Below are positions 19,465-60,169 of a DNA stretch of 64,000 nucleotides, in pieces. This DNA comes from Deroplatys truncata (Eukaryota > Arthropoda > Insecta > Mantodea > Mantidae): contig CM060983.1 in NCBI GenBank assembly GCA_030765065.1, positions 49,846,067-49,910,066 on the forward strand, written 5' to 3'. Position 1 is the first letter of the stretch, and every line of letters begins with the position of its first letter. Position numbers and translations under genes: made by a program. Below the pieces are notes generated by a model. The model had not been told where the DNA came from and did not search any database. It saw only the letters and a list, made by a program, of their open reading frames with translations.

Positions 19465-21076
19465 ATGGCTCCTATGTTTTCAAAGTTAAGTGGTAAGGTG
19501 TTACGTAGTCAAAGTAGGGAAATAATTGCAAATGTCCTCGACTTCATGAAGCAAGAAGCAGAGATGAAGGAAGAAAATATATGTTCATCCGAGTTCCATA
19601 AAAGCCTTAAGAGAGTGAAAGAAAGAGTAGTCAAAGCAACTGGTGTTTCACCGAGTTCCGATTCCAGCGTTCTCAAAAATAAGAAAAAAAAAACATATGG
19701 ATGAAAGAGTACCATTTGACACACCTGGGAAGAAACATAAGGTCCCTAAACGTATTACAGAAATAGACGATTTCGAATGCGTCATTCGGCGCACGATTCA
19801 CAATTCCGATGTGGAAGAAAAAAACTGTGCTAACAATAAGCAGATTGCTCATCAAGCTGAAAGACAGCAAAAACTTACAAGGTGGTGCTACAAATCTCAG
19901 TAAAATTATTAAAGATTTAGGGTTCAAGTGGAAGAAACCGAAATCAAATAGAAGAGCTCTAACAGAAAAGCAAAGCAAATAAATAAATAAATAAATAAAT
20001 AGAATAAAAAATAATAAAATAAAAAGTAAATGTTGCCATGATAGCTTAGTCGGTTAGAGCAACGGCACGGAAAGCCTAAGATCCGTGGTTCAAATCCCGG
20101 CTATGACATTGAATTTTTCAGTCTGATTCTACCTTTCCAAATGAGTATAATTTTATATGTACTTATATCAGCATCAATTTTAAAGGTGGTGCTACAAATT
20201 TCAGAAAAATACTATAGTGTATGAAGATGAGTCATACATACACAGCAGTCGTACAACATCTAAAAGTTGGAGTGACGATAGCGAATTAGGTTGCAGGTTG
20301 CTGTTGCTAAAGGGCAAATACTTATTATCGTTCATGCTGTTGGAAAGATCGGTTCGTTCCAAATGCCCTTCTTTTACAAGTTGCAAAAACAACAGGAGAT
20401 TTTCATCAAGAAATGAATACAGAAAAGTACATGAGGTGAATCAACGCCATGTTGATACCAATATGCCTGCTGGATCTGTTCTGGTCATCGACAATGCTTC
20501 ACAATGCGTCAACACTCAATTGACAAACAACCTACCTCAAATTCCTTGAAAGAAGAAATGAGAGCTTGATTACTTAGACATAATATAGCTTTAGATGAAA
20601 GCATGAGTAAAACAAAGCTAAATAACTTAATTAAAACCAACAAACAGCTTCAGACGTCATACATACTTGACCAGATAGTAATACAACATCGCCATAATGT
20701 ACTTAAGACTGCCATCGCATCGCCCAGATCTAAACCCAATCGAATTAATCTGGGCTGATATCAAAAAATGGGTGGCATGCATAAATATCACTTTTAAATT
20801 AAAATATGTGGAGCAGTTATAAGCCAGCAATTTGCTGAAATTGGAAGGCCAGAATGGGAAAATGTATGTCGACATGTTGAATAAATTAAGAATCATTATT
20901 TCGAAAAATACGGAATTTCAGAAAATCAAATAGAAAGAATTCTCATCCAAGATAATGGTGCAGAAAGTAGTGACAGCAGTGATGACGGCAATAATGTGAG
21001 TGATTCCGCAGAAGAGGAAGGGTTATTAGGTGTGGAAGAATTGGAGGCAATGATTGACAGCGTTTTTTTATATTAA
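19465..21076 (+). pseudogene. Broken DDE transposase (DESYIH type)
   Basis: The predicted start is ATG at 19,465 (context aaccATGG). The N-terminal part is interrupted by a frame change near 19,690, then reads TPGKKHKVPKRITEIDDFE and KIIKDLGFKWKKPKSNRRAL. After an insertion the catalytic core resumes as VYEDESYIHSSRTTSKSWSD (first Asp codon 20,226), SVLVIDNAS (second Asp codon 20,490) and PDLNPIELIWADIKKWV (Glu codon 20,742). About 83 residues separate the second Asp from the Glu. The C-terminus ends in an acidic stretch (ESSDSSDDGNNVSDSAEEEG). Several stops and a missing segment before the core show it is dead. The motif DESYIHSS is familiar from insect transposons with a DDE_3-type endonuclease; this is family knowledge, not a search result. 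Confidence 0.85.
19975..20175 (+). mobile_element. tRNA-like SINE (family D) with AAAT repeats
   Basis: An (AAAT)n stretch is followed by a tRNA-like fold at 20,036-20,108: D-arm GCTTAGTCGGTTAGAGC and B box GGTTCAAATCC. The acceptor stem pairs only partly and the T stem has mismatches, so it is not a normal tRNA gene. It interrupts the transposase. A related module (GTGGTTCAAGTTCCGGC on the minus strand) lies near 33,120. Confidence 0.6.
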
Positions 21077-22197: not shown

Positions 22198-22790
22198 CCT
22201 TCTAGGTCTCATCCCTGTAATCTCCACTTCCTCGTGTTCAGAGAGACCTTAGTCGACAGCAACTGGACCTTCTGCTTCGTGCCGTGCAATGGCATTAGAT
22301 GCCGTCCAGTCTAACTGCTGCTTCCATATAGAAAGGCGGAAAGTTAGTCTTCTAGGTCTCATCCCTGTAACGATCTGCTTCGTCACGTGTCCACGGAGAC
22401 CTTAGTGCATAACAACTGGATCTTCTGCTTCGTGCCGTGCAGATGGTATTATGGTGTCGTCCAGTCTACCTGCTTCCATATAGGAGGTATTTAGCCTTCT
22501 AGGCCTCATCCCTGTAACCATGCTATCTTGCTTCGCACGTGTGCACAGAGACCCTAGTGCATAGCAACTGGATTTTCTGCTTCCTGCCGTGCAGATGGTA
22601 TTAAGGTGCCGTCCAGTGTACCTGCTTCCATATAGAGAGGTAGTTAGCTTCTAGGTTTCATCCCTGTAAGCATGCTATCTTGCTTCGTGACATGTCCACA
22701 GAGACCTTAGTGCGTAGCAACTGTATCTTCTGCTCCGTGCCGCGCAGATGACATTAGGGTGCCGTCCAGTCTATCTGCTGCTTTTATTGT
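22198..22790 (+). repeat. Tandem repeat, four ~150-bp units
   Basis: Four units start at TTCTAGG near 22,200, 22,350, 22,497 and 22,649. Each carries CTCATCCCTGTAA, a GAGACCTTAGTGC-type block, AGCAACTGGATCTTCTGCTT, CGTGCCGTGCAGATGG and GTGCCGTCCAGTCTACCTGC, closing with TTCCATATAGA in the first three. Units differ at many positions. No open frame runs across them. This is a minisatellite-like array, not part of any element I recognise. Confidence 0.9.
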
Positions 22791-28608: not shown

Positions 28609-28887
28609 TGTGATGTGTTACACTCACATGACTTTCTCTACTCTTGTACAAACTATTTATACAAACGCTTATTTTCCATATGCTTCATGTTAGTCGAGAT
28701 AAACATTTGCAGACTCTATCTTATTGCTAATTTTCTTGTAGATGTAAGGGGAATATATATTTACAAGGGCAATATAGAAATACAGTAGCCTTTAAGCACA
28801 TACATATCTCTTATTAGCTGGTTGCTAGGTGCAGCACCATTCGCTTTGCCACAGATTAATATTCTTTGCATATCGAAGACAAAAAAA
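28609..28887 (-). repeat. R element, outer part of a nest
   Basis: TGTGATGTGTTACACTCACA to GAAGACAAAAAAA. The copy breaks at its internal A run, where a full R is inserted. Its remaining part restarts at 29,801. Confidence 0.88.
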
Positions 28888-29592
28888 TCTGATGTGTTAC
28901 ACTCACATGACTTTCTCTACTCTTGTACAATCTAATTTTACAAACGCCTATTCTCCATATGCTTCATGTTAATCGAGATATCGAGATGTCAATCTTATTG
29001 GTAATTTTCTTGTAGATGCAAGGGAAGTATGGTAGCTTTTAAGCGATAGTAAAATATTTTAACGCTGGTTGCTATGTGGCGCATTCCATTCTGTTTGCAT
29101 GTCCAGGACATAAAAAAAATGAATAACGCATTTGGGAAAAAGTATAAGTATTGGAAAATTTAACGAAATAACAAGCAATATCTCGAAAACGGTTCACTCA
29201 ACAAAAGAAATGTATATGACATAAGTTGTGTATTTTAACGCGATCTACATTTTTTGTGTAGTAAAATTTTGTCTATCTCTTATGGTTTACCAGTTATGCA
29301 AAAGTCGTTCATAATGAAGAATACTTTTGGAGACATTCCCAGAAAATTCGAGAAATACATTTCATTTCTCATGACATCGTCTTAAACATATGATATTTTC
29401 ATCAAAATCGTTAGAGCCATTTTTGAGAAAATTAAAATTTTCGAAAAATCTTCCATGTAAAGGGTAGTCTGGGGTGGGGGGATTTCCTTGAAAACCTTTC
29501 TTGTCGCATCTCTGGAAGATACTGAACCTAAATACCAAGTTTGGTGCTTATCCGACTGTTCGTTTTTGAGTTATGCTGTTCAAAGACACACA

Positions 29593-29663
<71 letters not shown>

Positions 29664-29800
29664 ACACACGGACATGTTTCCAAAAATGCTTTTTTTGGAT
29701 TCAGGAGGTCTCAAAACATGTATTTCCGGCGAAATCTCGGTATCTAATTTTTGGGTGGAATGCAATACTTCCCCTACTTACTATACGTAGTAGAGAAAGT
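28888..29800 (-). repeat. Full-length R element (913 bp), nested
   Basis: Complete from TCTGATGTGTTACAC to GTAGTAGAGAAAGT, with A runs on both sides. It carries the longest microsatellite expansion (about 29,584-29,674) and a 100-residue open frame (29,488-29,790) of the type seen in many R copies. Confidence 0.93.
29584..29674. repeat. (CA)n microsatellite inside R
   Basis: About 90 bp of almost pure CA repeats fill the position that holds 8-60 bp of mixed CA/CAGA repeats in other R copies. Confidence 0.95.
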
Positions 29801-30456
29801 AAAAAACGAATAACGAATTTGAGAAAAAGTATAAGTATTGGAAAATTTAAGGGAATAACAAGCAATATCTTGAAAACGGTTCACTCAACAAAAGAAATGT
29901 GTATGACATAAATTGTGTATTTTAACGGGATCTACATTTTTTGTGTAGTAAAATTTTGTCTATCTCTTATGGTTTACCAGTTATGCAAAAGTCGTTCACA
30001 ATGAAGAATACTTTTGGAGACATTCTTAGAAAATTCGAGATATACATTTCATTTCTCATGACAATATCTTAAACATATGATATTTTAATCAAAATCGTTA
30101 GAGCCATTTTTGAGAAAATTAAAATTTTCGAAAAATGTTCCATGTAAAGGGTAGTCTGGGGTGGGGGGATTTTCTTGAAAACCTTCGTGTCGCATCTCTG
30201 GAAGATACTGAACCTAAATACCAAGTTTGGTGTTTATACGACTGTTCGTTTCTGAGTTATGCTGTTCACAGACACACAGACACACGGACACACGGACACA
30301 TAGACACACAGACAGACACACACACGGACATGTTTCCAAAAATGCTTTTTTTGGATTCAGTGAGTCTCAAAACATGTATTTCCGGTGAAATCTCAGTATC
30401 GAATTTTTGGGTGGAATGCAATACTTCCCCTACTTACTATACGTAGTAGAGAAAGT
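29801..30456 (-). repeat. R right part, array unit 1 (~655 bp)
   Basis: It starts at the internal A run (AAAAAACGAATAACGAATTT) and ends GTAGTAGAGAAAGT. It resumes the copy begun at 28,609. Confidence 0.9.
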
Positions 30457-31085
30457 AAAAATGAATAATGAATTCTCATTTGAGAAAAGTGTTGAAAAAT
30501 TTAAGGGAATAACAAGTAATATCTCGAAAATGGTTCACTCAACAAAAAAATGTATATGATATAAACTGTGTATTTTAGCGCGAACTACATTTTTTGTGTA
30601 GTAAAATTTTGTCTATCTCTTATGATTTACCAGTTATGCAAAAGTCGTTCACAACAAAGAATACTTTTGTAGACATTCCCAGGAAATTCAAGATATACAG
30701 TTTATTTGTCATAAAAATATCTTCAACATATGACATTTTAATCAAAATCGTTAGAGCCATTTTTGAGAATATTAAAATTTTCGAAAAATCTTCCATGTAA
30801 AGGGTACTCTGGGGTGGGGGGATTTTCTTGAAAACCTTCGTGTCGCATCCTTGGAAGATACTGAACCCAAATACTAAGTTTGGTGTTTATTTGACTGTTC
30901 GTTTCTGAGTTATGCTGTTCACAGACACACAGACACACACACAGACACACACACGGACATGTTTTCAAAAATGCTTTTTTTGGATTCAGGGTGTCTCAAA
31001 ACATGTATTTCCGGTGAAATCTCGGTATCGAAATTTTGGGTGGAATACAATACTTCCCCTACTTACTATACGTAGCAGAGAAAGT
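30457..31085 (-). repeat. R right part, array unit 2 (~629 bp)
   Basis: It has the same start point (AAAAATGAATAATGAATTC) and the same end as unit 1. It lacks the left ~280 bp of R. Confidence 0.9.
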
Positions 31086-31685
31086 AAAAAAGTGAATAAC
31101 GAATTTCCATTTGAGAAAAAGTATAAGTATTGGAAAATTTATCGGAATATCAAGCAATATCTCGAAAATGGTTCACTCAACAAAAAAATGTATATGACAT
31201 AAATTGTGTATTTTAACGCAATCTACATTTTTTGTGTAGTAACATTTTGTCTATCTCTTATGGTTTACCACTTATGCAAAAGTCGTTCACAATGAAGAAT
31301 ACTTTTGGAGACATTCCCAGAAAATTCAGATATACATTTCATTTGTCATAAAAATACCTTAAACACATGATATTTTAATTAAAATCGTTAGAGCCGTTTT
31401 TGAGAAAATTCTTGAAAACCTTAGAGTCGCATCCCTGGAACATACTGAACCTAAATACCAAGTTTGGTGTTAATCCGACTGTTCGTTTCTGAGTTATGCT
31501 GTTCACAGACACACAGACACACACACGGACATGTTTTCAAAAATGCTTTTTTTGAATTCAGGGGGTCTCAAAACATATATTTCCGGTGAAATCTCGGTAT
31601 TGAATTTTGGCGTTGAATACAATACTTCCCCTATTTACTATACGTAGTAAGTAAAACGCAGTAAAGTATACGTAGTAGAGAAAGT
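31086..31685 (-). repeat. R right part, array unit 3 (~600 bp)
   Basis: It has the same breakpoints as units 1 and 2. About 50 bp around the GTTCCATGTAAAGGG block are deleted. A short duplication of the terminus (cgcagtaaagtatacgtag) lies at its end. Confidence 0.88.
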
Positions 31686-32022
31686 AAAAGGAATAGGGGG
31701 TTATGACTTTAAACAGCAAGTGTAAGTATTTGAAAATTCAAACTAATAAATAATATTTCGGATACGGTTTACGTCACAGAAAGTGATTTCACATAAATTC
31801 TAGCTTTTATGAGAACTATGTATTTTTGTGTAGTAAAGCTTTGGTTATTTCTTGCAGTTTACCAGTTACACAAAATTCGTTTAGAATGAAGACGAATTTA
31901 TTGTTATGCGGAGATAATTCAAGATATTCATTTTATTTTATCATGCAAAAAGTCTTAAATATATAGTGTTTTAATAAACATCGTACAGCAACTTTTGAGG
32001 TAGTAAAACTAAAAGAAAAATA
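31686..32022 (-). repeat. R2 fragment, decayed
   Basis: GTGTAAGTATTTGAAAATTC, TTTTTGTGTAGTAAAGCTTT and GTTTACCAGTTACACAAAA show R2 in reverse orientation, without its terminus. Confidence 0.65.
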
Positions 32023-35730: not shown

Positions 35731-35735
35731 TTTTA

Positions 35736-36599
35736 CTTTCTCTACTACGTATAGTAAGTAGGGGAAGTATTGCATTCCACCCAAAAATTCGATACCGAGA
35801 TTTCACCGGAAATACATGTTTTGAGACCTCCTGAATCCAAAAAAAGCATTTTTGGAAACATGTCCGTGTGTGTGTCTGTGTGTCTGTGTGTGTGTCTGTG
35901 TGTGTGTGAACAGCATAACTCAAAAACGAACAGTCGGATAAACACCAAACTTGGTATTTAGGTTCAGTATCTTCCAGAGATGCGACACGAAGGTTTTCAA
36001 GAAAATCCCCCCACCCCAGACTACCCTTTACATGGAACATTTTTCGAAAATTTTAATTTTCTCAAAAATGGCTCTAACGATTTTGTTTAAAATATCATAT
36101 GTTTAAGATAATGCCATGAGAAATGAAATGTATATCTCGAATTTTCTGGGAATGTCTCCAAAAGTATTCTTCATTGTGAACGACTTTTGCATAACTGGTA
36201 AACCATAAGAGATAGACAAAATTTTACTACACAAAAAATGTTGATCTCGTTAAAATACACAACTTATGTTATGTACATTTCTTTTGTTGAGTGAACCGTT
36301 TTCGAGATATTGCTTGTTATTCCCTTAAATTTTCCAATACTTATACTTTTTCTCAAATTCGTTATTCATTTTTTTATGTCCTGGACTTGCAAAGAGAATG
36401 GAATTCGACACATAGCAACCAGCGTTAAAATATTTGACCATCGCTTAAAAGCTACCATATTCCCCTTGCATCTACAAGAAAATTAGCAATAAGATTGACA
36501 TCTCGATATCTCGATTAACATAAAGCATATGGAGAATAGGCGTTTGTAAAAATAGATTGTACAAGAGTAGAGAAAGTCATGTGAGTGTCACACATCAGA
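35736..36599 (+). repeat. Full-length R element (864 bp) inside LTR-1 copy G
   Basis: ACTTTCTCTACTACGTATAG to ACACATCAGA, with T runs on both sides. It splits LTR-1 copy G, so this R insertion is younger than that LTR. Confidence 0.93.
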
Positions 36600-36654: not shown

Positions 36655-37140
36655 TTATGCGTGATGCGTCCTCGAGAAATATAACATGTATTCGTGTGAG
36701 ACGAAAAATAGTTTACGTGTTAAAAAGTGCAAGTAATTAATAAAAGAATCTCACAGCTCTATATCAGTGAAGTGTTATTTAAATCGTATCAAGTATTAAT
36801 AAAAAGGAGTGAATTAAAACTTAAAATCTGCTTGAGCCTACATTCTTAGTCGTATTACAACCCTACAAAGAGAATATTAAATACTTAAAGAAACTGTCAA
36901 ATTACAAAGATAATATTTTTTTTAAACTTGGGGCAAAGACCACCTGAAATTACACTTGGGGCGAAGGCTACCAGAAACCGGGTACCATACGTGCGGTTGC
37001 AAACAAGCTTAAAGTTCGGCTCCCCAACAGTTGAAATATAATATAACTCCTACTTCAAATCGGCTTTTCCATAACCTTCTCAAATTGACGCCCAAAGCGT
37101 GGTGCAAACAACGTAAGGACAATAACGTAACAAACCATCT
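36655..37140 (+). mobile_element. LTR-1 copy G, part 2 with leader
   Basis: GTGATGCGTCCTCGAGAAAT, CTCACAGCTCTATATCAG and leader modules CTTGGGGCAAAGACCACCTG, GGGCGAAGGCTACCAG, GTTCGGCTCCCCAACAGTTG and AAATTGACGCCCAAAGCGTG follow in order. Confidence 0.7.
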
Positions 37141-37337
37141 TCTCAATTGATTGGTGCAATTCTCAAGGCGGCACTTGAAATTTGGTTTGGAATATCGTTT
37201 CTGGTGATGAACCTTGGCCTTATTGTTATGATCCTAAAAAAAAAGTCAATCTGCTCAATGGGTCTCTCTAACAGAATCTAAGCCTACAAAGTCCGACAAA
37301 TTCGCAATGCTGGTAAGAAGATCGTTGCTAGTTTTTT

Positions 37338-37449
37338 ACTTTCTCTACTACGTATAGTAAGTAGGGGAAGTATTGTATTCCACCCAAAAATTCAATACCG
37401 AGATTTCACCGGAAATACGTGTTTTGAGACCCTCTGAATCCAAAAAAAA
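37338..37449 (+). repeat. R (outermost of nest), part 1
   Basis: ACTTTCTCTACTACGTATAG to CTGAATCCAAAAAAAA. It breaks at the internal A run next to the GCATTTTTGG block and resumes at 39,232. Confidence 0.92.
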
Positions 37450-37672
37450 TCTGATGTGTTACACTCACATGACTTTCTCTACTCTTGTACAAACTATTTA
37501 TACAAACGCTTATTCTCCATATGCTTCATGTTAATCGAGATGTTAATCTTATTCCTAACTTTCTTGTAGATGCAAGGGGGATATGGTAGCCTTAGGCGAT
37601 AGTCAAATATTTTAAGAAGTGGTTGCTATGTGGAGTATTCCATTCTTTTTGCATGTCCAGGACATAAATAAA
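37450..37672 (-). repeat. R (second level of nest), part 1
   Basis: TCTGATGTGTTACACTCACA to CCAGGACATAAATAAA, inserted in the A run of the outer copy. It breaks at its own internal A run. Confidence 0.92.
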
Positions 37673-38569
37673 TCTGATGTGTTACACTCACATGACTTTC
37701 TCTACTCTTGTACAATCTATTTTTACAAACGCCTATTCTCCATATGCTTCATATTAATCGAGATATCGAGATGTCAATCTTATTTGTAATTTTCTTGTAG
37801 ATGCAAGGGGAATATGGTAGCTTTTAAGCGATAGTCAAATATTTTAACGCTGGTTGCTATGTGGCGCATTCCATTCTCTTTGCATGTCCAGGATATAAAA
37901 AAATGAATAACGAATTTGAGAAAAAGTATAAGTATTGGAAAATTTAAGGGAATAACAAGCAATATCTCGCAAACGGTTCACTCAACAAAAGAAACCTATA
38001 TGACATAAGTTATGTATTTTAACGCGATCTACATTTTTTGTGTAGTAAAATTTTGTCTATCTCTTATGGTTTACCAGTTATGCAAAAGTCGTTCACAATG
38101 AAGAATACTTTTGGAGACATTCCCAGAAAATTCGAGATATACATTTTAATTATCATGACAATATCTTAAACATATGATATTTTAATCAAAATCGTTAGAG
38201 CCGTTTTTGAGAAAATTAAAATTTTCGAAAAATGTTCCATGTAAAGGGTAGTCTGGGGTGGGGGGATTTTCTTGAAAACCTTCGTGTCGCATCTCTGGAA
38301 GATACTGAACCTAAATACCAAGTTTGGTGTTTATCCGACTCTTCGTTTTTGAGTTATGCTGTTCACAGACACACAGACACACAGACAGACAGACACACAG
38401 ACACACAGACACACAGACACACAGACAGACACACACACGGACATGTTTCCAAAAATGCTTTTTTTGGATTCAGTGAGTCTCAAAACATGTATTTCCGGTG
38501 AAATCTCGGTATCGAATTTTTGGGTGGAATGCAATACTTCCCCTACGTACTATACGTAGTAGAGAAAGT
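37673..38569 (-). repeat. Full-length R (third level of nest, 897 bp)
   Basis: Complete from TCTGATGTGTTACAC to GTAGTAGAGAAAGT, inserted in the A run of the second-level copy. Confidence 0.94.
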
Positions 38570-39231
38570 AAAAATGAATAACGAATTGGAGAAAAAGTAT
38601 AAGTATTGGAAAATTTAAGGGAATAACAAGCAATATCTCGCAAACGGTTCACTCAACAAAAGAAATGTATATGACATAAATTGCGTATTTTAACGCGATC
38701 TACATTTTTTGTGTAGTAAAATTTTGTCTATCTCTTATGGTTTACCAGTTATGAAAAAGTCGTTCATAATGAAGAATACTTTTGGAGACATTCCCAGAAA
38801 ATTCGAGATATACATTTTAATTATCTGGCAATATCTTAAACATATGATATTTTAATCAAAATCGTTAGAGCCGTTTTAGAGAAAATTAAAATTTTCGAAA
38901 AATGTTCCATGTAAAGGGTAATCTGGGGTGGGGGGATTTTCTTGAAAACCTTCGTGTAGCATCTCTGGAAGATACTGAACCCAAATACCAAGTTTGGTGT
39001 TTATCCGACTCTTCGTTTTTGAGTTATGCTGTTCAAAGATACACAGACAGACACACAGACAGACACACAGACACACAGACACACAGACAGACACACACAC
39101 GGACATGTTTCCAAAAATGCTTTTTTTGGATTCAGTGATTCTCAAAACATGTATTTCCGGTGAAATCTCGGTATCGACATTTTGGGTGGAATACAATACT
39201 TCCCCTACTTACTATACGTAGTAGAGAAAGT
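38570..39231 (-). repeat. R (second level of nest), part 2
   Basis: AAAAATGAATAACGAATTGG to GTAGTAGAGAAAGT continues the copy begun at 37,450. Confidence 0.92.
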
Positions 39232-39762
39232 AAAAAGCATTTTTGGAAACATGTCCGTGTGTGTGTCTGTGTGTCTGTGTGTGTGTCTGTCTGTGAACAG
39301 CATAACTCAGAAACGAACAGTCGGATAAACACCAAACTTGGTATTTAGGTTCAGTATCGTCCAAGGATGCGACACGAAGGTTTTCAAGAAAATCCCCCCA
39401 CCCCATAGTACCCTTTACATGGAAGATTTTTCGAAAATTTTAATTTTCTCACAAATGGCTCTAACGATTCTGATTAAAATATCATAAGTTTAAAATATTT
39501 TTATGACAAATAAAATGTATATCTTGAATTTTCTGGGAATGTCTCCAAAAGTATTCTTTATTGTGAACGACTTTTGCATAACTCGTAAACCATAAGAGAT
39601 AGACAAAATGTTACTACACAAAAAATGTAGATCGCGTTAAAATACACACTTTATGTCATATACATTTGTTTTGTTGAGTGAACCATTTTCGAGATATTGC
39701 TTGTTATTCCCTTAAATCTTTCAATACTTATTTTCTCAAATGGGAATTCGTTATTCATTTTT
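39232..39762 (+). repeat. R (outermost of nest), part 2
   Basis: AAAAGCATTTTTGGAAACAT to GTTATTCATTTTT resumes the copy begun at 37,338. It breaks at the second internal A/T run, where another R starts. Confidence 0.92.
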
Positions 39763-40626
39763 ACTTTCTCTACTACGTATAGTAAGTAGGGGAAGTATTG
39801 CATTCCACCCAAAAATTCGATACCGAGATTTCACCGGAAATACATGTTTTGAGAATCACTGAATCCAAAAAAAGCATTTTTGGAAACATGTCCGTGTGTG
39901 TGTCTGTCTGTGTGTCTGTGTGTCTGTGTGTCTGTGAACAGCATAACTCAAAAACGAACAGTCGGATAAACACCAAACTTGGTATTTAGGTTCAGTATCT
40001 TCCAGAGATGCGACACGAAGGTTTTCAAGAAAATCCCCCCACCCCAGACTACCCTTTACATGGAACATTTTTCGAAAATTTTAATTTTCTCAAAAACGGC
40101 TCTAACGATTTTGATTAAAATATCATATGTTTAAGATATTGTCATGACAAATAAAATGTATATCTCGAATTTTCTGGGAATGTCTCCAAAAATATTCTTC
40201 ATTGTGAACGACTTTTGCATAACTGGTAAACCATAAGAGATAGACAAAATTTTACTACACAAAAAATGTAGATCGCGTTAAAATACACAGCTTATGTCAT
40301 ATACGTTTCTTTTGTTGAGTGAACCGTTTTCAAGATATTGCTTGTTATTTCCTTAAATTTTCCAATACTTATACTTTTTCTCAAATTCGTTATTCATTTT
40401 TTTTGTCCTGGACATGCAAAAAGAATGGAATGCGCCACATAGCAACCAGCGTTAAAATATTTGACTATCGCTCAAAGCCTACCATATTCCCTTTGCATCT
40501 ACAAGAAAATTACCAATAAGATTGACATATCGATATCTCGATTAACATGAAGCATATGGAGAATAAGCGTTTGTAAAAATAGTTTGTACAAGAGTAGAGA
40601 AAGTCATGTGAGTGTAACACATCAGA
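39763..40626 (+). repeat. Full-length R (864 bp) at second internal T run
   Basis: ACTTTCTCTACTACGTATAG to ACACATCAGA. The last ~220 bases of the outer R are not found after it, so either they were deleted or the two copies recombined. Confidence 0.92.
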
Positions 40627-40639
40627 TTTTTTCTATAAC

Positions 40640-41131
40640 GAACCATATTGCTACTATAGCATTAGAAGTTAGACATACTATTACTGCCGATTGATACACA
40701 AATGTCTATTTATCGAAAAGTTTTTAAAAAGTGCTGAAAAACGTCCAAAAGGGGAAAAAATATTAACATGACAGCGCAACGGCGCATACATCAAAACTAA
40801 CAACTAGGTACCTGGATGCCCTAAAGGTCAGCACTACGAATCCTGCACCATACAGCCCAGATCTAGCCCCTTGTGATTTCTTTTTGTTTCCATAAATTAA
40901 AGATAATATTCGTGGAATCACTTTTTTGTCATCAGATAAAGCAGTAGAACAGTATAAAACCTGGTTTCTGAAATGCCTCTGAAAGAGTGGCATCATTGTT
41001 TTAAGGACTGGTTTCATTGAATGCTACAATGTATTGATGTTAAAGGGGAATATTTTGTAAAGCAATAAAATTATTTATCTTTTTAAAACTAATCCTTGTT
41101 TGAATTTCGAAAATTTTTAGTGTCACCCTCG
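40640..41131 (+). mobile_element. Mariner 3' remnant with terminal repeat
   Basis: The pseudogene is followed by GTGTCACCCTCG and TA (41,132-41,133), the expected mariner 3' end. The 5' side joins R directly and no 5' terminal repeat is present. Confidence 0.65.
40755..41090 (+). pseudogene. 5'-truncated mariner transposase relic
   Basis: Reading across frame changes, HDSATAHTSKLTTRYLDALK carries the second catalytic Asp. Thirty-five residues further on, PYSPDLAPCDFFLFP carries the third (DD34D spacing). A stop follows, then IKDNIRGITF and the closing block ILRTGFIECYNVLMLKGNI. The N-terminal helix-turn-helix and the first Asp region are missing. The frame is interrupted by stops, so this is a dead fragment. 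Confidence 0.82.
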
Positions 41132-41133
41132 TA

Positions 41134-42224
41134 GTATATAATATACCCTTTGCAGATTAGGAAGTTTTTACTAGGTATCATATAAAATTTGTAGGTCTGG
41201 GAATATTCGTTGTGGGAACATTTCTGTTTTCTTTAATACGCATCCTTTAGATTTCAAGGACACATGTCCCCTACACGAAAATGGAGGACATTTCAGTGTC
41301 TGAAGAGAGAGGTGGACAGATTCGAGTGTCCAGGTGCTTCCATTGTCTGGTCAAGGTGGTGCTTGAAAATCCCAAGAAAACTTGTTTACCATCCGTTGCC
41401 TCACCATCTGCTCTGATGCTGTGACGTTTCGTCTTTTGTCCCTTCCTTTTTGTGGAGCACAAGAAAATCACGAGGCAGAGAGATTTCTCAATCTGTCGCA
41501 TGGAGCCTTTTATTTTTGTTTGGTTGCCTGCAAGACTGGCATTCTGAAACTGCTAATTACTGCAGCTAATCTGTTAGTTTTGTAAACAAAATATAAGAAA
41601 TTGGTTTTAATCAAGCACAGTTTTCTATCCAAGCGCAATTCATTCACTACAAACACAGTCTCATAGCTTAAATGAGATCGTTATCCTTTCTCTTTCTCTC
41701 TTTTTCCCCTGCTTCATTATCCCTTGGCTCGCTCTCACTCTGCTCTCCCTACGTCTCTCAACATATCTCCGTCGCATGCTATCTCTCCACGTATTATAGT
41801 GTGGAGAAGCCAGTATGAACTATTATTTTATAGTTTATTCGCATTTTCACGTTTCAAAATGTAAAACGATATTACATTTAACTTGAATAATTATGTCATA
41901 AAATCTTGAAAAGCTGTTTGTTCCTTTTTCGACGATAGTGTTTTTTATCCACGCTATCATGCATGGAAACTTGAAATTTTCTGCACTCCAGGCGTTTTGC
42001 ACTTTTTACGCACACGTTAATAAGATTAATTTAACCCTCCAACTATTTATATGTATATTTATTGTTGCAGACATACAATATAATCATATATGATAGTTGA
42101 ATTTCATCATTTAAACCTTACCTCTTTACTTCCCTTTATTTTTTAATTTATTTATTTTAAGTAGCTTTAACTCGCAAAGGTCTATTCCGACTCTTCCATT
42201 AATACTGTGATGGTTGAACATTAA
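41134..42224. other. Spacer, no feature recognised
   Basis: It includes a CT-rich stretch (41,690-41,790). Open frames of 67-76 residues lie on both strands without recognisable motifs. It is the longest stretch here with no assigned repeat and may be near-unique sequence. Confidence 0.45.
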
Positions 42225-43639: not shown

Positions 43640-43893
43640 TTTTTGGGTTATAACGTTGGCATTCTGCGAGTACATGGGAAACTGTCAATGTAGTTTTGCA
43701 ATGCACTTGTAGTTGAACACTGCGGCTGAGTTTGTTTGCTGATCAGATTGGAGTGTGTCATTTTTGTATGTCCAATTCTTAAGCTGGTAATGATGACTGG
43801 ATGTTTCCTGTTTAAGTTTGTAAAAAATACATTTATTGTTTGAAGATCCTATTATAGTAAGTAGCTTGTTTCCCTGATTTTGAGACCATTATT
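43640..43893 (-). pseudogene. Non-LTR retrotransposon C-terminal tail (split by R)
   Basis: The minus strand reads WSQNQGNKL, then SLRIGHTKMTHSNLISK and, after a frame change, LTVSHVLAECQRYN-like sequence. This is the cysteine/histidine tail found after the RNase H domain in Jockey/I-type elements. Its upstream part lies at 44,797-45,400 on the same strand. The R element between them was inserted later. The match to the family is by motif layout only. Confidence 0.7.
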
Positions 43894-58923: not shown

Positions 58924-60169
58924 CACTGCGTGATCAAAAGAATCCAGACACCTGGCTGAAAATGACGTACAAGTTCGTGGCGCCCTCCATCGATAATGCC
59001 GGAAGTGAATATGGTGTTGGCCCACCCTTAGCCTTGATGACAGCGTTCACTCTCGCGGGCATACTTTCAATCAGGTGCTGGAAGGTTTCTTGGGGAATGG
59101 CAGCCCATTCTTCACGGAGTGCGTTGCTGAGGAGAGGTATCGGTGTAGGTCGGTTAGGCCTGGCACGTAGTTGGCGTTCCAAAATATTCCACAGGTGTTC
59201 TATAGGATTCAAATCAGGACTCTGTGCAGGCCAGTCCATTACAGGGATGTTATTGTCATGTAGCCACTCTGCCACAGCCCGTGAAGTATGAACAGGTGCT
59301 CGATCGTGTTGAAAGATGCAATCGCCATCCCCGAATTGCTCTTCAACAGGGGAAAGCAAGAAGGTGCTTAAAATATCAATGTAGGTCTGCGCTGTGATCG
59401 TTTCACGCAAAACAAGGGGTGCAAGCCCCCTCCAGGAAAAACACGACCACATCATTACACCACCACCTCCGAATTTCACTGTTGACACAACACACGCTGG
59501 CAGATGACGTTCACTGGGCATTCGCCATACCCACACCCTCCCATTGGATCGCCACATTGTATACCGTGATTCGTCACTCCACACAACGTTTTGCCACTTT
59601 TCAATCGTGTAATGCTGACGCTCCTTACACCAAGCGAGGCGTCGTTTGGCATTTTCCTGCGTGATGTGTGGCTTATGAGTAGCCGCTCGACCATGGAATC
59701 CAAGGTTTCTCACCTCACGCCTAACTGTCATAGTACTTGGAGTGGATCCTGATGCAGTTTGGAATTCCTGTGTGATGGTCTGGATAGATGTCTGCCTATT
59801 ACTCTTTACGACCCTCTTCAAATGTCGGCGGTCTCTGTCAGTCAACAGACGAGGTCGGCGTGTACACTTTTGTGCTGTACATGTCCCTTCACGTTTCCAC
59901 TTCACTATCACATCAGAAATAGTGGACCTAAGGATGTTTAGGAGTGTGGAAATCTCGCGTATAAACTTCTGACACAAGTGACACCTAATCACGTGACCAC
60001 GTTTGAAATCCGTGAGTTCCACGGTGCGTCCCATTCTGTTGTTTCACGATGTCTAATGACTAGTGTGGTTGCGGATAATGAGTACCAGGCAGTATGTGGC
60101 AGCACAATGCACCTAAAATGAAAAACGTATGTTTGTGGAGGTGTTCGGATAATTTTGATCACATAGTGT
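58924..60169 (-). mobile_element. Tc1 element (1,246 bp), best preserved
   Basis: The left end is CACTGCGTGATCAAAAGAAT; the complement of the right end is CACTATGTGATCAAAATTAT. TA is present at 58,922-58,923 and 60,170-60,171. The uninterrupted S copy at 55,070 has a single TA at the matching point (tatgTAtacc), confirming insertion at TA with duplication. Confidence 0.96.
58934..60034 (-). CDS. Tc1-type DD34E transposase, full-length frame
   Basis: This enzyme binds the terminal repeats of its element, excises it and inserts it at TA in the nucleus. The 366-residue frame starts MGRTVELTDF. Two helix-turn-helix units occupy roughly residues 1-115, with the basic TRRPR motif (58-62) between them. 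The catalytic triad is complete: D154 (WSDESRYTMW), D244 (FQHDRAPVHT) and E279 (SPDLNPIEHL), with 34 residues between D244 and E279. The two sister copies end at a TGA two codons after a Pro. Here that codon is TCA (59,006-59,008), so the frame runs 24 extra residues into the terminal repeat. The standard protein is thus 342 residues. No stop or frameshift interrupts the core. Whether it is active is unknown; the terminal repeats carry point differences. Confidence 0.93.
   Translation of the reverse strand: MGRTVELTDFKRGHVIRCHLCQKFIREISTLLNILRSTISDVIVKWKREGTCTAQKCTRRPRLLTDRDRRHLKRVVKSNRQTSIQTITQEFQTASGSTPSTMTVRREVRNLGFHGRAATHKPHITQENAKRRLAWCKERQHYTIEKWQNVVWSDESRYTMWRSNGRVWVWRMPSERHLPACVVSTVKFGGGGVMMWSCFSWRGLAPLVLRETITAQTYIDILSTFLLSPVEEQFGDGDCIFQHDRAPVHTSRAVAEWLHDNNIPVMDWPAQSPDLNPIEHLWNILERQLRARPNRPTPIPLLSNALREEWAAIPQETFQHLIESMPARVNAVIKAKGGPTPYSLPALSMEGATNLYVIFSQVSGFF

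Follow-up and report, generated by a model that had tools for sequence, protein, structure and literature searches.

Nested copies of R, a probable non-autonomous Helentron, at A/T runs within its own sequence

Canonical Helitrons are inserted between A and T, with TC at the 5' end and CTRR at the 3' end (PMC4067079). HINE and DINE-1 elements feature subterminal inverted repeats (subTIRs) of 12-15 bp, a 3' palindrome and an internal microsatellite, which is GTCY-rich in DINE-1 (PMC4067079, PMC2374699). They have T-rich targets, a variable number of Ts at their ends, high copy numbers, and autonomous Helentron partners with which they hold their ends in common. The FoHeli elements of Fusarium, which are non-canonical Helitrons, have been observed to self-insert and to have several 5' termini with one 3' terminus; the explanation given is that an event initiated at the outer 5' end is terminated by the first 3' end (PMC5148889).

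Described here is R, a very abundant, protein-less element of ca. 0.89 kb from a genome of 4.29 Gb (818 contigs). Each of the HINE/DINE-1 features named above has a counterpart in R. The favored reading, to which a probability of roughly 0.87 was assigned as a joint explanation, is that R is a non-autonomous Helentron (a HINE, similar to DINE-1) that lands in A/T runs and whose nests are re-mobilized. This kind of element is already known; the scale and the orderly stacking of the self-insertion are the noteworthy part.

The nest at 37338-40626 and the abundance of R

The window (the whole 64,000-nt stretch of DNA that was analyzed, C9:49846067-49910066) was mapped with R divided into three modules, namely m5, M and 3, with a microsatellite between M and module 3. 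Genome-wide junction and site counts were exact pattern matches on both strands. R modules occupied 27.7% of the window and, with 12-bp margins, 11.5% of a 200-kb random sample, being present in 18 of its 20 stretches. The R terminus followed by A5 had 219,782 exact occurrences genome-wide on both strands (reversed control: 13), and R makes up a large part of the genome. The exact terminus had 0 matches in viral contigs and 0 matches in prokaryote genomes (records near the source genome had possibly been left out of both collections), and no paper containing its letters was found in the literature searched. A solitary complete R is located near the nest (35735..36599, minus strand). Besides R, the window holds an unbroken 369-aa frame for a Tc1/Tc3-type transposase (58934-60043, minus strand; HTH_Tnp_Tc3_2 and DDE_3), a tRNA match at 20035-20108 (plus strand) that passes the Rfam gathering score with 37.5 bits but was not called by ARAGORN, and 3.6 copies of a 152-bp tandem repeat (22233-22779). 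The Tc-type transposase matches and the size of the genome suggest that the source is an animal.

The earlier note, whose orientation of R is retained here and is the reverse of the Helentron orientation, described R copies nested at A/T runs, and this was reproduced by reading positions 36801-41400 and by module mapping. Downstream of a T run (37332-37337), the outermost R (minus strand) starts with a 5' Helentron unit (module 3, comprising the terminus, a subTIR and a hairpin; 37338..37449) that extends to an A7 run, termed the T-site. At this run, which adjoins GCATTTTTGG, the copy is split by an insert on the opposite strand (37450-39231; 1,782 bp). The insert is in turn split, at the A run before TGAATAACG (the A-site), by the R at 37673-38569. 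It opens with the m5 of a middle R (37450..37672, plus strand; type 5B, 6.6% from consensus), at the end of which is an A-rich run. The innermost R (37673..38569, plus strand) is complete, with m5, M, microsatellite and module 3 at 0.9-2.9% from the module consensuses. Thereafter, the middle R resumes at AAAAATGAATAACG with an M of the young “GG” type and module 3 (38570..39231, plus strand). The outermost R resumes with A5 GCATTTTTGG..., the microsatellite and an L-type M (7.5% from consensus), and continues to its second internal run (39232..39762, minus strand), where a fourth, complete R (39763..40626, minus strand) abuts its A-site. The fourth R is flanked by TTTTTT (40627-40632), after which no R module was mapped before 43889. 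All breakpoints fall at A runs, inside of which the exact base is indistinguishable; at the left junction at 37673, the A run is interrupted.

The nest is genuine. Chance is not its source, as the exact right junction of the A-site occurs 15,252 times genome-wide with a reversed control of 0. Misassembly is a risk where near-identical repeats follow one another at length, but as an account of the nest it is very improbable: the same junctions were found thousands of times, in either orientation and with 0 matches to the reversed controls (the places listed are on C1), and stacks were also read on C5, C7, C8, C9, C13 and C14.

Both outer copies had been claimed to resume where they were broken. 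By position they do so, but the middle copy has halves of two subfamilies, an m5 of the 5B type and an M of the young “GAATTGG” type, which follows a 5A module in 5 of 5 complete copies (L002 and L004-L007, all retrieved with a query of the “GAATTGG” type). Given this difference, the halves, which match by position, may derive from different original copies; the halves at locus L003 are likewise from different subfamilies. Beyond the fourth R, the outermost copy is not continued. Module mapping placed no m5 of the outermost copy there, up to the next R module at 43889, and 39232-40626 is therefore a composite in which two 5' (Helentron) units are joined to a single 3' end. A second nest in the window (28611..31999, plus strand) starts with 5L and 5A, which are followed by M-3 units; the M divergences are 3.3, 1.7, 7.6 and 18.0%, with a fifth, partial M at 27.8%, and the only two m5 modules are at the head.

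Ends of R and its autonomous partner

In Helentron orientation, the 5' end was T-run|ACTTTCTCTACTACG... and the 3' end ...GTAGAGAAAGTCATGTGAGTGTAACACATCAGA|T-run. Read on the opposite strand, R starts with ACTTTCTCTACT after a T run and finishes with AGTAGAGAAAGTCATGTGAGTGTAACACATCAGA before a T run. A 12-bp subTIR is found as ACTTTCTCTACT at the R 5' end and as AGTAGAGAAAGT 22 nt from the 3' end. There is a hairpin at the R 5' end, and the 3' palindrome has a weak, 5-bp stem (ATGTG-7 nt-CACAT; computed at -2.3 kcal/mol for R and -2.6 kcal/mol for the autonomous copy described below). CA/CAGA microsatellite arrays were located inside R copies. Of 29 copies in which both ends were present, all had two or more flanking As (R strand) on the right and 27 had them on the left, i.e. 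the target is T-rich. The flanks of the 29 copies were also joined and matched locally to look for paralogous empty sites; the matches listed, for two copies, were to R-internal sequence. R was assigned to HINE/DINE-1 because its subTIR, 3' palindrome, microsatellite and flanking runs match features given in the excerpts of PMC4067079 and PMC2374699. A canonical Helitron was rejected on the ends of R, which in Helentron orientation read ACTTTCTC.. and ..CACATCAGA, each bordered by a T run. A MITE was set aside on the ends and on the partner.

A 10-kb autonomous element was located in the same genome (L039 828 to L038 8239), and all comparisons with R were made with this single copy. Its stop-to-stop frame in L038 (2324 aa) had Pfam matches to Helitron_like_N, PIF1 helicase and DUF6570. 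An HEH motif at aa 1146 and YIIKYISK at aa 1327 are what we take to be the two-histidine and two-tyrosine motifs of Rep. The helicase part matched Helraiser 7lcc (1.4e-22). A C-terminal match to Exo_endo_phos_2 (27.7 bits vs. a cut-off of 27.4) emerged only from a separate search of the C-terminal piece; Helitron2, a candidate after a first Pfam pass that returned no endonuclease, was rejected on this match. The N-terminal part was matched to Herpes_teg_N (Pfam). A search of the same genome with the Helitron_like_N profile (PF14214) scored 150 of 291 candidates and yielded 152 matches, many of which had open frames of more than 2,000 aa. Two groups of Helitron-type proteins were apparent: high scorers, mostly with stops, and a long-frame group that includes the Helentron studied here.

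The autonomous element and R have the 5' ca. 630 bp of R in common. The autonomous copy features two tandem 5' units, the first of which is 95.1, 94.2 and 89.2% identical to the R copies at 35735, 39758 and 37673, respectively; for the last 33 bp, the respective identities are 90.9, 93.9 and 93.9%. Its 3' end keeps 11 of the 12 bp of the subTIR. Much of the R m5 (about positions 34-130) had no match in the single autonomous copy examined. Judged from these alignments, R looks like a deletion derivative of the autonomous Helentron family. The earlier note had known of no named family for R; the features of R instead place it with the Helentrons as a DINE-1-like HINE, the autonomous partner of which resides in the same genome.

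These ends also bear on the idea that R is a SINE-like retroposon, with the A run as its poly-A tail and with nesting as in the A-rich linkers of Alu. In many copies A5 is indeed found downstream of the GAAAGT end, the orientation is fixed relative to the A run, and similar behavior is described for Alu in the excerpt of PMC2517846. However, A runs occur on both sides, subTIRs and terminal palindromes are present, and the autonomous Rep/helicase element has the same two ends, which strongly disfavors a retroposon. A SINE was accordingly rejected and is considered hardly credible.

Occupancy of the internal runs and order of insertion

At the A-site (A7 before TGAATAACG), 16,808 left junctions were counted vs. 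106,797 intact sites, so that 13.6% were filled (16,808/123,605). The T-site (the other A7 run) had 2,702 left junctions vs. 135,322 intact sites, or 2.0% filled (2,702/138,024), and 1,521 right junctions genome-wide. At an internal A6 control run, 1,281 filled sites (control: 1) vs. 119,267 intact ones gave 1.1% (1,281/120,548). Head-to-tail R-R junctions numbered 8,977 genome-wide. From the random sample, A/T runs outside R were estimated at about 2.8 million of at least 7 and 21.6 million of at least 5; if the ca. 194,000 remaining termini are spread over them, the share of runs filled is at most 6.5% for the former and about 0.9% for the latter. Because of this expectation, the filling of internal A6-A7 runs at 1-2% is, in rough terms, unremarkable, and that of 13.6% is not; these ratios are approximate, as the patterns were unequal in strictness and the run estimate was based on 200 kb. 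At equal run length, filling of the A-site exceeded that of the T-site about sevenfold. In random stretches, 1 of 17 scored termini was at the A-site. The junction classifier used for these termini and for the A-run lengths given below filed several variant A-site junctions under “other” (they include L029 3693, L032 2992 and 3651, L037 870 and 1501, and the left junction at 37673 in the window), and its own A-site counts are thus low.

It had been proposed that R makes itself a preferred landing site through breakpoints at the same two internal runs. That R lands in A/T runs in a fixed orientation, and that its own internal runs are used repeatedly, was borne out. That R as a whole is a preferred target was not supported, as only the run before TGAATAACG is over-represented; nor are breakpoints limited to two runs, since the A6 run and the R-end run (the head-to-tail junctions above) are also used. 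Compared genome-wide with other A runs, one A7 run is in excess and the second looks ordinary.

The intact A-site run had 6-8 As in 34 of 34 cases. At filled A-sites, 7 As were found upstream in 14 of 15 cases (8 in the other), and 5 As downstream in 19 of 24 (6 in four and 2 in one). The gain of about 5 As can be ascribed to the element's own Ts or to a duplication. Inserted copies have the same orientation as their host at the A-site and the opposite one at the T-site, as expected of a single fixed strand preference.

Pairing of junctions was assessed among the matches listed on C1. At the T-site, 28 of 56 right junctions had a same-strand left junction within 6 kb, and in 22 of these 28 pairs the distance was 838-907 bp, the size of one R. 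At the A-site, only 28 of 92 right junctions had a left partner within 6 kb (Fisher p=0.023 vs. the T-site), and one-to-one matching yielded 21 pairs, with 75 left and 71 right junctions unmatched. Because most of the listed A-site junctions are unpaired, the A-site counts are beyond what plain nesting alone supplies. Some unpaired junctions are mutated anchors, as the T-site shows. The unpaired surplus fits composites with one duplicated end, such as those postulated for FoHeli (PMC5148889) and the autonomous copy with its two 5' units, and part of the A-site excess looks like the copying of already nested composites.

The excess could alternatively mark the A-site as a true self-targeting hotspot, the flanks or structure of which attract the Helentron complex beyond the effect of A-run length. 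The disparity in filling among the A-site, the other A7 run and the A6 run argues for this reading, as do the similar left and right A-site counts (16,808 and 15,252). The lower pairing at the A-site argues against it, with many junctions apparently inherited in composites; moreover, the patterns counted were unequal in strictness, and some listed junctions lie within evenly spaced local arrays or a larger inverted element. On balance, a hotspot was considered doubtful. A related notion, that the A-site T7 is an evolved or structural landing pad that keeps new copies inside old ones, with nests as the regular route to duplicated-end composites including the autonomous element, is unlikely. R is therefore best described as a lander in A/T runs that also lands in itself, with re-mobilized nests in addition, rather than as a proven self-seeking element.

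The relative ages of stacked copies were compared in 28 pairs. In one pair the ages were tied; of the 27 others, the downstream (outer) M was the older in 20 and the younger in 7 (p=0.019). Most of these loci had been chosen for matching R or a junction, and pairs in which the start of the outer M was unaligned (including those at window positions 30487 and 31718) were left out. The autonomous copy is among the 7 contrary pairs (7.3 vs. 2.6%). Locus L037 has four m5 modules on one side and four M-3 units on the other, with M divergences of 5.2, 5.2, 7.7 and 9.0 going outward; the m5 divergences (3.2, 5.9, 2.2 and 7.5, each vs. its own type) are not strictly ordered. In the window nest, the outermost M diverges by 7.5% and the innermost copy by 0.9-2.9%. 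The outward age trend supports stepwise landing, and the contrary pairs, like the mixed subfamilies, suggest that exchange took place later or that composites moved. The possibility that the young GG-type M exists only behind another R was discarded, as m5 directly precedes it in 5 of 7 GG copies.

Stacks could also have arisen by tandem duplication or by unequal exchange between direct repeats, with no insertion involved. Such events are in keeping with the unbalanced stacks at L032 (two m5, four M-3), L034 and L035 (one m5, two M-3), with the evenly spaced junction arrays at C1:158335260-158342542 and C1:19824426-19831869, and with the subfamily mismatches in the window nest and at L003. They are at odds with the outward age trend, with the opposite-strand nesting at the T-site at single-R spacing, and with the separation of m5 and M-3 stacks to opposite sides that insertion predicts (L037). 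This origin was considered quite improbable.

Other arrangements of R were noted on C1. Between 20305 and 122563 there are 31 evenly spaced intact A-sites (about 3,409 bp), with T-sites at a similar spacing; this is a 3.4-kb satellite near the contig start, the unit of which contains R. Inverted pairs of A-site junctions, 4.7-9 kb apart, accounted for 12 of the first 100 places listed. Those at C1:13833736-13843058, 22028072-22033235 and 26123583-26132928 have a 443/451-bp spacing (one end was read as L040), and they suggest that R units are carried here by another, larger element whose ends are long and inverted. The two junction arrays cited in the preceding paragraph each have four junctions at about 2.4-2.5 kb, and there stretches of R nest seem to have been turned into units of short tandem arrays.

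Proposed mechanism and comparison with known systems

To the observed ends, partner, strand rule, counts and age trend we add a rolling-circle mechanism and re-mobilization of nests, both of which we infer. The Rep/PIF1-helicase/endonuclease protein of the autonomous Helentron would nick R and copy it by rolling-circle replication, and a single strand of R would be placed into a T run. The two A7/T7 runs inside R would on occasion let a new copy insert into an old one. If this happened repeatedly at the A-site, stacks of the form m5...m5 M-3...M-3 would result, with the oldest parts outside. A same-orientation nest that was re-mobilized from its outer 5' end to its inner 3' end would have one end duplicated; alternatively, re-mobilization that started at the inner 5' end and ran past the inner 3' end would presumably give two 3' ends.

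With thousands of ordered, datable Helentron self-insertions in one assembly, accompanied by long-frame autonomous relatives, target choice, orientation and the origin of multi-terminus composites become measurable from sequence. The stacks also illustrate that one element family is able to build such repeat structures in a 4.3-Gb genome. No account of Helentron self-nesting at this scale was found in the literature searched, which was partially covered.

In detail, R departs somewhat from the published HINEs. Its 3' subTIR, 22 nt from the end, is closer to the terminus than the 38-60 bp of mite HINEs, and its 5' subTIR begins at the terminus, whereas those of HINEs begin 2-4 nt inside. Large-scale, ordered self-nesting is a feature of R that is undescribed for HINE/DINE-1 in the excerpts of PMC4067079 and PMC2374699. 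Alu, like R, is inserted into its own internal A-rich run; unlike R, it is a retroposon that uses the L1 integration machinery (PMC2517846). Canonical Helitrons such as Helraiser resemble the partner of R in combining Rep with a PIF1-type helicase (that of the partner is similar to 7lcc) and in their rolling-circle logic. R and FoHeli are alike in self-insertion and in having several 5' termini with one 3' terminus. FoHeli1 and FoHeli2, however, show a target preference for TNAT|A, whereas R targets T runs, and the excerpt of PMC5148889 gives one nested example for FoHeli, compared to thousands for R.
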